Shown: piece after piece, positions 5,337 to 58,286 of the stretch
How the letters are laid out: every line of letters starts with the position of its first letter
How positions within the stretch are numbered: position 1 is the stretch's first letter
DNA from: a virus
Virus record (IMG/VR): IMGVR_UViG_3300025438_000014
Location: 1 to 64,000 of that record
DNA: 64,000 nt
Direction: 5' to 3' (one strand)
The notes under the pieces: model-generated
Seen by the model: the letters and a program-made list of their open reading frames with translations, nothing else
The model's database searches: none
Told to the model about the DNA's origin: nothing
Translations under genes and position numbers: made by a program

Positions 5337-5540
5337 TCACCCCAATTTATACAGCAAGTGACCAACTTCGTCAGTAACTCTTTGTTTAAACTCTGGAAAG
5401 GATATAGTATCTTCACTTTTACAAAATTGTAGATTAAGAGGATGCTCAACACCATCAATATATGTAAATAGGAAAATATCATCATTGGGGAAACAACGCA
5501 TAGAAACATTGTATGCTACTTTGTTTATTGTTATACGCAT
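5337..5540 (-). CDS. unknown small protein
   Basis: 67 residues beginning MRITINKVAYNVSMRC. The ATG at 5540 is chosen because a good GGAGAG ribosome site lies just upstream; the longer reading frame would run into the tmRNA coding piece. No family is recognised. Confidence 0.65.
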   Translation of the reverse strand: MRITINKVAYNVSMRCFPNDDIFLFTYIDGVEHPLNLQFCKSEDTISFPEFKQRVTDEVGHLLYKLG

Positions 5541-5551
5541 GACTCTCCAAT

Positions 5552-5862
5552 AAAAATAGGCCCGTTCTGTTGCAAGGTGGAGCCCATACCCCATGTCGTT
5601 ACGCTGCTAGAGCGTAACCCATAGGTGCACTATTTTTGTTTGCATCTATAAAGTTTCTTGCGGTTACAGTCGCTTGCGCACTGGCTTCTAGCTTACTCTT
5701 TGATACCTGTCGATCCTATTTCGACCCCATCATCTACCTACTAAGTTCATTCTTTATCGTTACTAAGCGCTTAGCATGAATATAACGAGTTATCGTAGTA
5801 GGTAGGTGGTGGAGTCGCTGGGTACTGCCCCCAGGTCCAGAATATCTCCAATTCACATAATT
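5552..5862 (-). ncRNA. ssrA: circularly permuted two-piece tmRNA
   Basis: Read on the minus strand, the acceptor piece comes first: a T-stem-loop CTGGG/CCCAG with loop GGCAGTA, then CGACTCC, A and CCA ending at 5807. After a 78-nt intervening segment whose ends pair (CCTACCTACTA with TAGTAGGTAG), the coding piece starts at 5728 with GGGGTCG. GGGGTCG pairs with CGACTCC over all 7 positions, forming the acceptor stem with discriminator A. P2 (GGTATC/GATATT) also pairs across the two pieces. The coding piece holds a resume codon GCA and the tag ANKNSAPMGYALAA with a TAA stop (5643-5599). This is the gene order of alphaproteobacterial tmRNA, which is known to be processed into two RNAs and to rescue stalled ribosomes with SmpB. 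Outer ends are approximate. Confidence 0.92.
5599..5643 (-). other. tmRNA proteolysis-tag reading frame
   Basis: Fourteen codons from resume codon GCA to TAA encode ANKNSAPMGYALAA. The hydrophobic ALAA end is what ClpXP-type proteases recognise on tagged proteins; this is family knowledge. It lies inside the coding piece of the permuted tmRNA. Confidence 0.9.
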
Positions 5863-5877
5863 GAAGCGATGATTTTA

Positions 5878-6039
5878 TTATACTTCGTTTCTTAGTAGCT
5901 TTTCTAAATCTTTTTCATGTGGCTCATACTCTACCCATAGATCAGGACCAGAGATTTCCCCATGTTGTGGAATGTTACGAGCAGCTATTACACCTGATAA
6001 AAAGGCGTGTTTTAGCATACGTGCAATTAGCAGTGTCAT
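5878..6039 (-). CDS. unknown small protein
   Basis: 53 residues (MTLLIARMLKHAFLSG...LRNEV) with its start 1 nt from the stop of the ATP-grasp gene and an AAAGG ribosome site inside that gene. It ends just before the tmRNA. No family is recognised. Confidence 0.6.
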   Translation of the reverse strand: MTLLIARMLKHAFLSGVIAARNIPQHGEISGPDLWVEYEPHEKDLEKLLRNEV

Positions 6040-25106: not shown

Positions 25107-25475
25107 ATGGATATTTGTGAAATTAGTGAGTATGGTCAGGGCGATAAACTATTCTTGATTGTGCATAATCCAGATGCTAAACCAGAAATGCTCACTATGA
25201 CGGGTGATGATGGTTATACGTGGTCTAGAGAAGAAATGGCTAAGTTCTCGACTGTAGAGGAGATTATTTGTGTAGGCTACTCCAATATTGTTGTAGAAGG
25301 TGCTCAGAGTCTCGAAACTCAGCTTGAAGAAGATCCTACTTATTATTTCAAATATGGTTATAATCGTACATATGTTATCGGCCCCCATAAAGGGGAAGAA
25401 GAAGATGTATTTGCTACATACTCTGACGCACAAGAAGAAGCTGATGATAGAAATGAGGGTCAACACCCTTACTAA
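25107..25475 (+). CDS. unknown acidic protein
   Basis: 122 residues, strongly acidic C-terminus (EEEDVFATYSDAQEEADDRN). AAGGA site before the ATG. Confidence 0.55.
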   Translation: MDICEISEYGQGDKLFLIVHNPDAKPEMLTMTGDDGYTWSREEMAKFSTVEEIICVGYSNIVVEGAQSLETQLEEDPTYYFKYGYNRTYVIGPHKGEEEDVFATYSDAQEEADDRNEGQHPY

Positions 25476-25489
25476 GAAAAGAGATTGCT

Positions 25490-25678
25490 ATGTTTACAGG
25501 CTACCCCAACGGTTTATATACTGACGAAGAAATTGTTTTGCTAAGACAAGAGCTTGTAGAAATGAATAGATTAGCAAGAATAGCTCGCGATGAAATCGGC
25601 GGTAGAGGGATGCACCCAAGAGTAGCTGCGATTAAAGATAAAATAAAAAAAGCAAAAGATAATGTTCCTGTAGCTTAG
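25490..25678 (+). CDS. unknown small protein ending in a tRNA
   Basis: 62 residues, helical and basic at the end. Its TAG stop is positions 8-10 of the tRNA-Met that overlaps its last 15 nt. Confidence 0.55.
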   Translation: MFTGYPNGLYTDEEIVLLRQELVEMNRLARIARDEIGGRGMHPRVAAIKDKIKKAKDNVPVA

Positions 25679-26131: not shown

Positions 26132-26494
26132 ATGAGTGATACAGATAAAGCGTTAGCAGAAGCAATTAAAACAGTTGCTCAAGCAAAAATAGCAGAAGCA
26201 CTTGGCGGTGATGTTCTAGGTTCTATTATCGAGTCGGTAATGAACCATAAAGAACGTACCTACAATGGTGGCAAACAAGAAAAAACTGTTTTTGAAACTA
26301 TGGTCGAAAATCAATTACGGCGAGCAGTTGAAGAAGCTGTTAGAGAATATCTAGTAACATCTAGTGTACAGATTAAAGAAGCTGTTGCAAAAGCTATGGA
26401 AGCAAGGACGCAAGACTTCGCTACTACTATTGTAGACTCTTTTGCTAGTGACGATTGGCGAGCTGAGCTAAAAGTCAGTATTGATCGCGATTAA
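26132..26494 (+). CDS. unknown helical protein
   Basis: 120 residues, Ala/Glu-rich helices, no recognised motif. Confidence 0.55.
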   Translation: MSDTDKALAEAIKTVAQAKIAEALGGDVLGSIIESVMNHKERTYNGGKQEKTVFETMVENQLRRAVEEAVREYLVTSSVQIKEAVAKAMEARTQDFATTIVDSFASDDWRAELKVSIDRD

Positions 26495-26499
26495 AGAAT

Positions 26500-26662
26500 T
26501 AGCTAGGGATGAAATCTAGCTATTGCGCTAAGTAAGTGTGGTGTGAACATGTGTACTTAGTTTGTGGTTTCGGCTACCCAGTAAAGTCCGACATATCACA
26601 TCGTCAATTTCTCAAGCTGTTACCACGTAAGAGTAACGCCAGGTGTAGCAACTGGCAATTTA
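26500..26662 (+). ncRNA. candidate multi-hairpin RNA or leader
   Basis: Four consecutive hairpins: TAGCTAG/CTAGCTA, CTAAGTA/TACTTAG, GTTAC/GTAAC and GCCAG/CTGGC. No open frame. It may be the leader of the next gene or a free RNA. Confidence 0.4.
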
Positions 26663-26676
26663 TAAAGTGATGTATT

Positions 26677-26910
26677 ATGAAGATTGCTGTTAGTACCAAA
26701 AATATAGAGTTAGGTATAGAACTGAACCAGTGGAAACGCTGTAGAGCAGAACGATATGTAGACTCATATATCGCGGTATTTGGTCCTCTGTTTTTTACTA
26801 GAACTAACCTACCTTTTTGTAAAAAAGCATGTAGTAGACTTTTTGATAAACTAAATGACCCAAACAGACCACTAAGAAAACTATCAGACTTATATAGTCG
26901 GTACGGTTAA
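26677..26910 (+). CDS. unknown basic protein
   Basis: 77 residues, Arg/Lys-rich, no recognised motif. Confidence 0.5.
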   Translation: MKIAVSTKNIELGIELNQWKRCRAERYVDSYIAVFGPLFFTRTNLPFCKKACSRLFDKLNDPNRPLRKLSDLYSRYG

Positions 26911-29891: not shown

Positions 29892-29940
29892 AAGGGTCAG
29901 TTCAGCATACCTTTTCATCGTTCTATGAAAAATGACCCTG
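29892..29940 (+). ncRNA. hairpin spacer
   Basis: AGGGTCA/TGACCCT with an inner TTTTCAT/ATGAAAA stem; lies between two tRNAs. Confidence 0.45.
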
Positions 29941-29951
29941 ATTTATAAAAC

Positions 29952-40739: not shown

Positions 40740-41765
40740 ATAATAAGAATTGGCGGTATAGCGTCATTAAGGATACCATATAGCAATATATGCAAAGAGG
40801 TGATTTCTACATAACCTCACTACTCTAGTAGTAGCCTATCTATAAAACCCTAAGTTAGTTGTAACCGTGTATGCATGAAGTGCAACGCTTCATTAATGGA
40901 GCTAGGTAAGAAGTTAAGTATATAGTCCGAAAGGATAAGTCCAGGCCAACGGTGAGGACGAATACGGTGGGAGCTGTAACTACGTAATTCCAACTTAACG
41001 ATTACTAAATACTAATAGGAGATTACGTTATAGTCTGACTATTCGCGTAGAAAGGCGACGTAATAACACAAACGGTGAGGGCTTTAACGAGCCAAAGTCG
41101 TGAAGTGTGGTTGAGTATCCCGCAAGGAGAAAAACAGGAGGTGTGTTGCATTTTGTATCTAACAAGGTATGAAGCAACTGGAACAGCACATCTTAGTAGA
41201 TTAACTTAGTCCAATGGTTAGGACGTCTGATCCCACATCAGAAGTTAAGAGTTCGAGTCTCTTAGTTTTTATGAAAAAAGCGAAAGACTGTTCCGGTATA
41301 TTGTTAAAAGTGCTTAATGCCTTAGTCGAAAGACAATAAGGCTCATGATAGCTCGCAAGGCAGGATTGATTGTTCGGAAAGAAGACGTAATAGTTTAGCG
41401 ACTATGAACTGCCCGACGAAGGTAGACGGAAGATTGAAAGACGAGTAGCAATATGCGACAGGAGAACCGCCTCTCCTCAAAAAAGGCAGCACTGAGAGAT
41501 ACTAGGATAGCTTCGGCACTTAGTGGATACGAATTAACGCTCCATAGCAACGGATACGGTACGGTTCTAAGGCTCTCACTCGATGGTGTAATCTCAGCCA
41601 ATCTACAAAAAAACTTTGATGTTAGATAAAGCTAACACGACCAGAGATAACACTGGGTGCTAAAGTGATACTAGCAAAACACAATCCGTGTCAGTTGCGT
41701 TACCCGCTGGCTAATGGTGGTATGCTGTGCCCACTAACTATAATTATTTTAATGATACATAGAAT
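40740..41765 (+). ncRNA. large ornate ncRNA, GOLLD-like
   Basis: About 1 kb without a gene, starting right after a promoter. It is full of short stems closed by GNRA loops (TCC-GAAA-GGA, GTC-GAAA-GAC, CC-GCAA-GG) and has a tRNA-like domain embedded at 41200. Size, phage location, tRNA neighbourhood and embedded tRNA fit GOLLD RNA, a family known from phages and lake metagenomes. I cannot align it to the GOLLD consensus here, so it could be a new RNA of the same style. Confidence 0.55.
41200..41271 (+). tRNA. tRNA-like domain inside the large ncRNA
   Basis: D-arm GTCC/GGAC, perfect anticodon stem TCTGA/TCAGA with loop TCCCACA, perfect T-arm AAGAG-TTCGAGT-CTCTT. Position 33 is C instead of T, the acceptor pairs only 5 of 7 and no CCA is encoded, so it is probably not a working tRNA. 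Confidence 0.55.
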
Positions 41766-56087: not shown

Positions 56088-56110
56088 AAATTATAGAGAA
56101 ATAAGAATAT

Positions 56111-56210
56111 AGGATTGTTTCAGCAAACCATTGCTTAGCTCATTGGTAGAGCTTTTGACTTCTAATCAAACTGTAGCTGGTTCAAATCCAGCAGCAAATC
56201 CCCAATCCTG
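56111..56210 (+). ncRNA. Y-RNA-like module 1 (contains tRNA-Arg)
   Basis: AGGATTG at the 5' end pairs with CAATCCT at the 3' end; TTTCAGCAAAC follows the 5' strand, a variant of the motif shared by all five modules. The interior is a tRNA-Arg(TCT) cloverleaf. AGCAA-ACCA-TTGCT can also close the acceptor as a hairpin. Confidence 0.6.
56129..56200 (+). tRNA. tRNA-Arg(TCT)
   Basis: D-arm GCTC/GAGC, TTTGA-CTTCTAA-TCAAA, T-arm GCTGG-TTCAAAT-CCAGC. Acceptor TTGCT/AGCAA only 5 bp and no CCA at the end, consistent with a domain of a larger RNA. Confidence 0.65.
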
Positions 56211-56226
56211 ATATATTCAATAATTT

Positions 56227-56321
56227 AGGTTAGTTACAGCAAAACAAAAAATGATAGGTTCAATCCCTATATTTTCCGCCAACCTGGAAAATGTCTTTGG
56301 TGACAAAACAATACTAACCTG
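56227..56321 (+). ncRNA. Y-RNA-like module 2 with permuted tRNA fold
   Basis: Closing stem AGGTTAGT/ACTAACCT, then TACAGCAAAAC, T-arm ATAGG-TTCAATC-CCTAT, ATTTTCC-G-CCA, 4 nt, GGAAAAT (perfect 7-bp acceptor capped by a loop), D-arm GTC-TTTGGT-GAC. This is tRNA in circularly permuted order with the closing stem where the anticodon arm would be, exactly the architecture of bacterial YrlA RNA. Confidence 0.75.
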
Positions 56322-56341
56322 TTTAATTTAAGAGAGATCAT

Positions 56342-56527
56342 ATGCAAATTACTTTAGAAGATCAAGATAGTGAAGACAAATATATTTTAAATGAGCATAA
56401 GGTGCTAGAGATCACAGCAAAAGCTTTTAACTCTAGAAACTATATTATTACTATGAGAAGCATTTCTGAGAATCTTAGCATTACTGTAAATAAACAAGAC
56501 TTAAAAAGAGCGCTAGACGCTCTTTAA
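56342..56527 (+). CDS. unknown small protein inside the RNA array
   Basis: 61 residues, MQITLEDQDSEDKYILNEHK onward; GAGAGA site. Lies between modules 2 and 3. No family recognised. Confidence 0.55.
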   Translation: MQITLEDQDSEDKYILNEHKVLEITAKAFNSRNYIITMRSISENLSITVNKQDLKRALDAL

Positions 56528-56533
56528 GAATAT

Positions 56534-56598
56534 AGGACAGTTACAGCAAAATTAAAAACCAACAACAATGAATGTCTTGGTTGACAACGCTGTCCTGA
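56534..56598 (+). ncRNA. Y-RNA-like module 3
   Basis: AGGACAG/CTGTCCT closing stem, TTACAGCAAAA, and GTC-TTGGTT-GAC as in module 2; AACCAA/TTGGTT is an alternative pairing. Confidence 0.6.
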
Positions 56599-56609
56599 AA
56601 AAATAACAT

Positions 56610-56671
56610 AGGATGATTACAGCAAAACTTTTCGCTAACCATCGGAGCCTAGCGGCACAAGTTCATCCTGA
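56610..56671 (+). ncRNA. Y-RNA-like module 4
   Basis: AGGATGA/TCATCCT closing stem, TTACAGCAAAA, then AACTT/AAGTT and CGCTA/TAGCG extend a single rod. Confidence 0.6.
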
Positions 56672-56678
56672 TAAAATC

Positions 56679-56732
56679 GGTTTGTTACAGCAAAGTAACA
56701 TATAGGTTCATACCCTAATTAACACAAACCTG
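56679..56732 (+). ncRNA. Y-RNA-like module 5 in the leader of the Ro-like gene
   Basis: GGTTTGT/ACAAACC closing stem, TACAGCAAAG, T-arm-like TAGG-TTCATAC-CCTA. Its 3' strand abuts the TGGAG ribosome site of the next gene, so binding could control translation. Confidence 0.6.
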
Positions 56733-56744
56733 GAGTACAATACA

Positions 56745-58286
56745 ATGCCATTTGAATATCAAGGGACTAAAACACGTCGTTTTCCTGCTAATTCCCCTCG
56801 CAAATCTAACCCACCACGCCAAGGTAACTCCTTTGCCGATGCAGTTCGCGCTGCTATCGTTGATGAAAAAGTACTTACCACAAACGGTATGACCGCTCGT
56901 AAAACTACTGGCGATGCAGTACTTGACTTCTTCACTAAAGCTGGAGCAAGCCGTGGTAAACTTCTAACTGATTCTTTCAGTGCAGCACTTGCAGAAGATG
57001 AAACTCTTGCAATCCGCGCGCTTCTATGGACCCGAGATATTACCGAAGGTGCTGGAGAGCGTAAGCAGTTCCGTGATATGCTTCAAGTACTAGAGCGTCA
57101 TAATGCTTACACTGCTGGACAGATTATGACTCGCATCCCAGAACTTGGGCGTTGGGACGACCTATTCTCGTACCGAGACCCAGTTAACGCACGTCGTGCT
57201 GTTGAACTATTCGCTAATGCACTTCGTGCAGGCAATGGTCTAGCCTTCAAATGGGCACCTCGTGAAAAGTCTGCTCGTCGTAGCGAAGCTCGTGTACTAA
57301 TGCAAGCGCTTGGAATGACCCCAGGTAACTATCGTCGTTTCCTATCTCGCGGCACTTCTGTTGTAGAAAGCCAAATGGCTTCTAAAGAGTGGGAAGCTAT
57401 TAACTTCTCGCACGTTCCTTCTGTTGCTTCTTCACGCTATCAAAAAGCGTTTGGACGTAACGCCGGAGAAGCTTATAGCGCATATCTACAAGAGCTTAAA
57501 AAGCCACAAGCACAACGTGATCCACGCGTTAAGATCAATGCAGCTGCGATTCACCCATACGAAATTGTTAAAGCAGTCCGTACAGGTGTACCCTCCGCAG
57601 CAGATGCACAATGGGAGGCACTACCTGACTTTATGAACGGTACTTCTGTTCTTCCTATGATTGATACTAGTGGGTCTATGCGTGGTGGAAATCCAAGTGC
57701 TATCGATGTTGCACTTTCCCTTGGTCTATATGTTAGTGAGCGTAATAAGTCCGCGTTCAAAGATATGTTCCTTAACTTTAGCGGTGTATCAGACTTCCAA
57801 ACTACCAAAGGAACTCTAACACAGCGTCTACGCCAAGTTGATACTGATAAGTGGCACATGAACACTAACATCGGTGGAGCCTTTGCTAACATCTTAAATG
57901 TTGCTACACATAATAATGTACCAGCAGAAGACATGCCAGAAGTTCTACTAATTCTTTCTGACATGCAGTTTGATAACGCAAATCGTAGTATAGATTATAG
58001 TGCAAATCGTAGCCCTCGCTATGGTAGCTTTAAACCTTGGAATCCTTCTGCGGTAGAACTTGCTACACGCATGTATCACCGTGCAGGATACGAACTTCCA
58101 AAGCTAGTATTTTGGAACATTCGAGGAGATGCAAATAGCCCTGTTCGTTTCGATGAACTTGGTACTGCGATGATTTCTGGGTACTCACCAGCTATCATGA
58201 AATCTGTTCTTTCTAACGATCTGGAACATTTTACTCCTTACAGTGTTATGCGTAAGACCCTAGACAATGTACGTTATGATTTTTAA
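56745..58286 (+). CDS. Ro60/TROVE-like ring protein with vWA domain (DUF2828 type)
   Basis: 513 residues. Residues 50-290 are helical repeats (LDFFTKAGASRGKL, RALLWTRDITEGAGERKQFR, FKWAPREKSARRSEARVLMQ, RFLSRGTSVVESQM) as in DUF2828/TROVE proteins. Residues 295-500 are a vWA domain with DTSGSM (D307), TNIGGAF and LILSDMQFD forming the MIDAS. Ro60 and its bacterial relative Rsr are rings that bind Y RNAs and misfolded RNAs and work with exonucleases. Five Y-RNA-like modules lie just upstream, one in its leader. Ro identity versus DUF2828 proper needs a profile search. Confidence 0.8.
   Translation: MPFEYQGTKTRRFPANSPRKSNPPRQGNSFADAVRAAIVDEKVLTTNGMTARKTTGDAVLDFFTKAGASRGKLLTDSFSAALAEDETLAIRALLWTRDITEGAGERKQFRDMLQVLERHNAYTAGQIMTRIPELGRWDDLFSYRDPVNARRAVELFANALRAGNGLAFKWAPREKSARRSEARVLMQALGMTPGNYRRFLSRGTSVVESQMASKEWEAINFSHVPSVASSRYQKAFGRNAGEAYSAYLQELKKPQAQRDPRVKINAAAIHPYEIVKAVRTGVPSAADAQWEALPDFMNGTSVLPMIDTSGSMRGGNPSAIDVALSLGLYVSERNKSAFKDMFLNFSGVSDFQTTKGTLTQRLRQVDTDKWHMNTNIGGAFANILNVATHNNVPAEDMPEVLLILSDMQFDNANRSIDYSANRSPRYGSFKPWNPSAVELATRMYHRAGYELPKLVFWNIRGDANSPVRFDELGTAMISGYSPAIMKSVLSNDLEHFTPYSVMRKTLDNVRYDF

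Follow-up and report, generated by a model that had tools for sequence, protein, structure and literature searches.

The question raised by this locus is what the short repeated elements in front of a gene for a Ro-like protein are, and whether they are RNA partners of that protein. The DNA analysed, hereafter called the window, comprises 64,000 nucleotides (positions 1-64,000 of the IMG/VR virus record IMGVR_UViG_3300025438_000014). A sequence-only reading had described five tandem Y-RNA-like modules there, with covarying stems. The five modules are indeed present at 56110-56738 (+), immediately 5' of a 513-aa gene, and all of them score (E 3e-8 to 2e-4) with R1, a covariance model of 31 modules (three from the window, the others from loci that were also searched), which in addition detected a sixth module at 29892-29941. 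The features are listed below.

29892-29941 (+): module 6, with AA-GGGUCA, GUUCAGCAUA and UGACCC-UG; R1 25.3 bits, E 5e-4.
56110-56210 (+): module 1, with a UA-GGAUUG stem, the motif UUUCAGCAAA, a tRNA-Arg(UCU) loop and CAAUCC-UG; R1 26.7 bits, E 2e-4.
56226-56322 (+): module 2, with a GGUUAGU/ACUAACC stem, the motif GUUACAGCAAAA, a permuted-tRNA loop and UG; R1 36.1 bits, E 8e-7.
56533-56598 (+): module 3, with a GGACAG/CUGUCC stem, the motif GUUACAGCAAAA, a hairpin loop and UG; R1 41.3 bits, E 3e-8.
56609-56671 (+): module 4, with a GGAUGA/UCAUCC stem, the motif AUUACAGCAAAA, a hairpin loop and UG; R1 35.2 bits, E 1e-6.
56677-56733 (+): module 5, with a GGUUUGU/ACAAACC stem, the motif GUUACAGCAAAG and a T-arm-like loop; R1 29.7 bits, E 4e-5.
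56732-56747 (+): Shine-Dalgarno sequence of the Ro-like gene (GGAG, 56732-56735) and its start codon (56745-56747).
56745-58286 (+): DUF2828 + DUF7788 protein of 513 aa, with a predicted helical-repeat part and a vWA domain.

In each module, (A)G opens a terminal stem (6-7 bp); next come NUN-CAGC(A/U)A, a loop that varies, and the complement of the 5' strand, which ends in C and is followed by UG. In modules 1-5, whose stem G is at 56112, 56228, 56535, 56611 and 56679, respectively, an exact complement of 6-7 nt precedes TG, with one G-U pair in module 3. Two of the loops are as the sequence-only reading had proposed: (i) that of module 1 is a tRNA-Arg(UCU) body (56129-56202), and (ii) that of module 2 folds, in permuted order, into a T-arm, a capped acceptor-like hairpin and a D-arm-like hairpin. 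Modules 3-6 have short loops with hairpins. Module 6 (AAGGGTCA...TGACCCTG) is a remote copy, located 27 kb upstream of the gene that follows the array, within a tRNA array, with tRNA-Pro on one side and a tRNA called as SeC on the other. Five of the six modules fold better than their shuffled versions (z -2.1 to -2.9; -2.5 for module 6), and module 5 folds no better than its shuffles (z -0.24). A further candidate, ACAGCAAA near 56411 in a small ORF (56342-56527), was rejected, having the wrong stem (no AG stem) and no R1 match. Within 56112-56142, the motif AGCAA of module 1 can pair with UUGCU of its own tRNA acceptor strand, a pairing found in the minimum-energy fold that competes with the tRNA fold. 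The window also contains 29 predicted tRNAs, a GOLLD RNA at 41138-41600 (+) (RF02032, 167 bits) enclosing tRNA-Trp (41200-41271) and, at 5508-5910 (-), a permuted tmRNA of the alphaproteobacterial type (RF01849, 114 bits; tag ANKNSAPMGYALAA) in a phage contig.

The product of the adjacent gene had been described as a Ro/TROVE/DUF2828-like ring protein with a vWA domain, a description that holds for DUF2828 and for the predicted Ro60-like fold but not for TROVE. Indeed, the profile search that had been suggested matched DUF2828 (2e-19, 70.1 bits for a gathering threshold of 29) and DUF7788 (2e-39, 135.6 bits, gathering 27.1), both of which also exceed the cut-off in 20 of 20 homologues, whereas Pfam TROVE (PF05731) matched neither the window protein nor any of the 20 homologues. 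In PHROGs, the protein matches phrog_850, an RNA-binding protein (E 2e-125). A MIDAS-type DxSxS is present in the vWA domain, its D307, S309 and S311 being invariant in 20 sequences. An AlphaFold model built from 26 sequences (that of the window and IMG/VR rows) is of moderate confidence (pLDDT 73, pTM 0.66), and its top PDB matches in Foldseek are 9kop, a TROVE domain (E 6.5e-7), and 9l5y, the Ro60 of Thermus phage phiLo (E 1.2e-6), which has the same predicted fold. The TM score of the model to TROVE is about 0.5, and profile comparison with 1yvp gave only E 0.013. According to this model, the window protein is Ro60-like in fold, with a helical-repeat ring and a vWA domain, and it is not a TROVE member by sequence. 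Its relatives occur in 680 of 50,697 phage records.

Recurrence of the modules was sought in 103 loci around the protein gene, namely the window, 22 loci from phages and IMG/VR, and another 80 from IMG/VR. On the strand of the gene 207 modules were counted, against 5 on the opposite strand and 3 in reversed sequence; 27 of the 103 loci have no strict module nearby, some of them carrying visible variants. In 175 of 180 cases, the distance from the stem G to the start of CAGCAA is exactly 9 nt. AG is found in 98% of the modules, preceded more commonly by U than by A, and the base after the 3' CUG is U in 78%, CUG itself being present in all counted modules by selection. The covariance-model search near the DUF2828 genes of relatives, which had been set beforehand as a check, did find recurrence: R1 gave 140 matches (E<=0.01), which are spread over 76 loci and lie without exception on the strand of the gene. 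Among 24 whole DUF2828 records, 20 were matched by R1 (17 at E<=1e-4) and four were not, some of the latter carrying visible variants; in the comparison set of 35 virus records, R1 matched three at E<=1e-4, including the only two found to hold DUF2828.

The covariation of the stems claimed earlier is also confirmed: in the 31-module alignment both sides change in five of the six stem pairs, the modules behind this count and behind R1 having been preselected for possession of a stem. Cleaner evidence comes from swapped-stem tests on sites not chosen on the stem. Near DUF2828 genes, 163 of 201 AG-N6-TN-CAGCAA sites are followed by the exact 6-nt complement and TG (mean of 9.4 and maximum of 19 with swapped stems), compared with 0 of 6 motif sites on the opposite strand. 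A scan of IMG/VR with the pattern alone (TAGGNNNNTTACAGCAAA) retrieved the complement and TG at 41 of 119 sites (swapped stems: mean 3.1, maximum 10). Stem-bearing sites are enriched where the gene is present (21 of 54, compared with 6 of 189; Fisher p 6e-11). Chance is excluded as the source of the modules by these tests. A recurrent long loop of about 145-165 nt with CUGGAG...GUUGAAGG, perhaps another RNA domain, was also observed in modules lying approximately 200-450 nt 5' of DUF2828 (L269 4764, L270 3654, L299 1167, L318 4760, L341 4756).

A bacterial chromosomal form was found as well. DUF7788 is encoded in 15 of 295 Oscillospirales genomes, three times on contigs longer than 2 Mb, and modules of the form AAAG-stem-CAGCA-...-UUG lie on the strand of the gene in 13 of 14 loci. 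The complement is present at 34 of 62 of these sites (3.4 with swapped stems; 0 on the opposite strand), with a spacing of 8 and the tail UUGU. RtcB is encoded nearby in 9 of the 14 loci, and one of them (L517) has the array, DUF2828 and RtcB in this order on a single strand; RtcB is not beside the protein gene in most phages, the window included. Modules are also present in bacterial-assembly loci of Roseiflexaceae, Endomicrobium, Rickettsiales and Spirochaetia, although some of these contigs may be phage.

The module cap motif defines an RNA class of its own, which resembles the Class I RNAs of dictyostelids. As described in PMC7919456, Class I RNAs are 42-65 nt long, start with AAG, end with CUGU, have a variable loop and many genes, and carry a 6-bp covarying stem with an invariant G and an 11-nt motif, CCUUACAGCAA, beside the 5' strand; the same paper reports none outside Dictyostelia and names the RRM protein Rnp1A as their direct binding protein. 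The phage modules have the 6-bp covarying terminal stem with the invariant 5' G by which Class I is defined (PMC7919456), the 5' AAG and 3' CUGU ends (with U more often than A before AG), a CAGCAA-type motif just inside the 5' strand, a length of about 60 nt, many copies and a variable loop. Compared with the 11-nt motif, CAGCAA is fixed in the modules and the spacing is one base shorter. Class I further differs by its DUSE promoter and by Rnp1A as direct partner, and the tRNA-like loops of the phage modules go unmentioned for Class I in the passages of PMC7919456 consulted.

Two readings of this resemblance were weighed. The first is convergence on a short motif rather than a shared kind of particle, and we regard it as on balance somewhat probable. 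It agrees with the Rfam scores, as the curated cut-off of RF01414 (41.5 bits) is never reached in phage records, the best value being 34.7 bits; with the earlier position of CAGCAA; with Rnp1A being the reported partner; and with the Oscillospirales chromosomal modules, which gave no RF01414 match. The exact Class I spacing, AAG-N5-CCTTACAGCAA, was also tried in virus contigs and occurs there at chance level (1 vs 0.5). Against convergence stand the number of common traits and the specificity of the matches: RF01414 is the top sense-strand match among 4227 families for six modules of Aeromonas phage LAh_8, and at E<=1e-3 it is found in 17 of 48 DUF2828 phage records but in none of the 35 control records that bear the motif and in none of the 14 genomes used as controls. 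Module 2 of the window aligns weakly with RF01414 (17 bits). The second reading, which we put forward only tentatively as the less probable one, is that DUF2828/DUF7788 proteins and CAGCAA-capped RNAs could constitute a second RNP system of the Ro-Y type, separate from TROVE/YrlA, that occurs in phages, in bacterial chromosomes and in dictyostelids; in that case the Class I RNAs, an orphan class, would be its eukaryotic Y RNAs and a DUF2828-like protein their missing partner.

As regards the position of the array, module 5 touches the ribosome site of the gene, as had been noted, since G56732 belongs both to its 3' CUG and to the Shine-Dalgarno GGAG. In 36 of the 73 loci with a module upstream of the gene, the 3' end of the last module is at the Shine-Dalgarno sequence, 14-29 nt from the ATG, the typical junction being CUG followed directly by AAAGGA or similar. 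This placement supports, without proving, autoregulation of the protein gene, which we hold to be slightly favoured: free protein could bind the leader of its own mRNA and switch translation off until enough free RNAs have been made. The same placement, together with the occurrence of modules among tRNA genes, would also suit modules acting solely in cis, as hairpins of the leader with a role in regulating the gene or in processing the tRNA transcript, and not as free RNAs. This is improbable, however, given that numerous copies are found at kilobases from the gene, downstream of it or in other parts of the genome, as module 6 is, and that the loops are often tRNA-like bodies. In Xanthomonas phage XaC1 (L346, 327,500-331,000), approximately five modules form an array some 200 kb from the DUF2828 gene of the phage, a distance that argues for action in trans.

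Module 2 had further been assigned to the design of bacterial YrlA RNAs, but the modules are not YrlA RNAs. The Rsr/Ro60-YrlA system (RF02553) is similar in its ring-plus-vWA protein (predicted here) and in its adjacent small RNAs with a terminal stem, present in several copies. That the modules could be the usual YrlA RNAs that accompany a Ro60/Rsr gene is also suggested by the permuted-tRNA loops of some of them, by RF02553, which matches permuted modules of phages TJE1 and Snenia with 30-48 bits, and by a similar logic of gene neighbourhood, including RtcB next door in some genomes. However, most loops are not permuted tRNAs, a domain of this kind having been seen in module 2 of the window and in 22 of the 179 modules of a non-redundant set, and the protein is DUF2828/DUF7788 and not TROVE by Pfam. 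RF02553 has no match in the window, and its cut-off is reached in none of the five relatives scanned (best 47.9 vs 69 bits). Weak RF02553 matches are unspecific: 140 of 398 genomes have them, as do 6 of 14 controls, and they turn up even in E. coli and B. subtilis. They probably arise from neighbouring tRNAs that mimic the model; the matches of 30-48 bits were therefore given no weight. Strong YrlA arrays (up to 92 bits) have GGCGAAUGC...CUUGUCGCC caps in place of CAGCAA and CUG, and R1 found no match in these loci. Loci of relatives with a TROVE gene proved too few to serve as a contrast. Membership of YrlA was accordingly rejected and is very unlikely. Finally, debris of tRNA arrays or DNA repeats for recombination, an idea to which the location of modules in tRNA clusters and the tRNA-like pieces held by some could lend colour, is largely refuted and of negligible probability because the stems differ yet covary and the strand bias is 207 to 5, the loops differing as well and the spacing being fixed.

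The array had moreover been thought to be new. Finding Y RNA arrays next to Ro genes is not in itself novel, but the cap does set a separate class apart. As cited in PMC12282133, Chen et al. (2014) reported Y RNAs near phage Ro genes. In the searchable literature, no report was found of the CAGCAA cap class, of the placement at the ribosome site or of the link to Class I. The Ro-like RNA-binding proteins of mycobacteriophages and of Listeria phage CKA15 belong to the same protein family as that of the window. For CKA15, PMC12282133 describes three strongly transcribed noncoding regions in the 2 kb that precede the homologous gene, detection of the homologous protein in purified virions, and a most transcribed region, at 26,236-26,727, that was suggested to be perhaps a Y RNA or a small regulatory RNA. 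The strong transcription and the presence of the protein in virions speak for an RNP. The modules of CKA15 are located at 25,291-25,551. Its main noncoding region (L021 4441-4932) was considered as a set of modules and rejected, as it overlies a ROOL RNA match instead (87 bits, below the cut-off, in the sister phage LP-124).

The reading retained is that the modules are very probably small noncoding RNAs partnering the adjacent Ro-like DUF2828/DUF7788 protein, the two forming a separate kind of Ro-Y-type RNP that has an RNA class to itself. This is well supported computationally, by recurrence, strand, covariation, fixed spacing, gene linkage, placement at the ribosome site, the Ro-like predicted fold and, in some genomes, linkage to RtcB; binding, expression in the window phage and function are inferred. 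The shared cap (AG and a 6-bp stem, NUN-CAGCAA, C-UG) would be the handle for the protein, whose ring could bind it as Ro60 binds the stem of Y RNA, and the variable loops, often tRNA-like, would be the functional ends. Loops mimicking tRNA, whole or permuted, may gate the ring or recruit tRNA-handling enzymes, candidates being RtcB or other RNA ligases, nucleotidyltransferase and modification enzymes. By analogy with Rsr/YrlA/RtcB, a role of the particle in quality control or repair of tRNA and other RNA during infection is fairly probable.

In summary, for a protein whose 680 phage records are mostly annotated as hypothetical or RNA-binding, a class of RNA partners is now proposed. Besides defining such a class, the analysis describes a site of probable autoregulation and, in bacterial chromosomes, a form accompanied by RtcB. 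It also gives a direct, testable lead on the partner of Class I RNAs, which are abundant developmental RNAs reported without relatives outside Dictyostelia.
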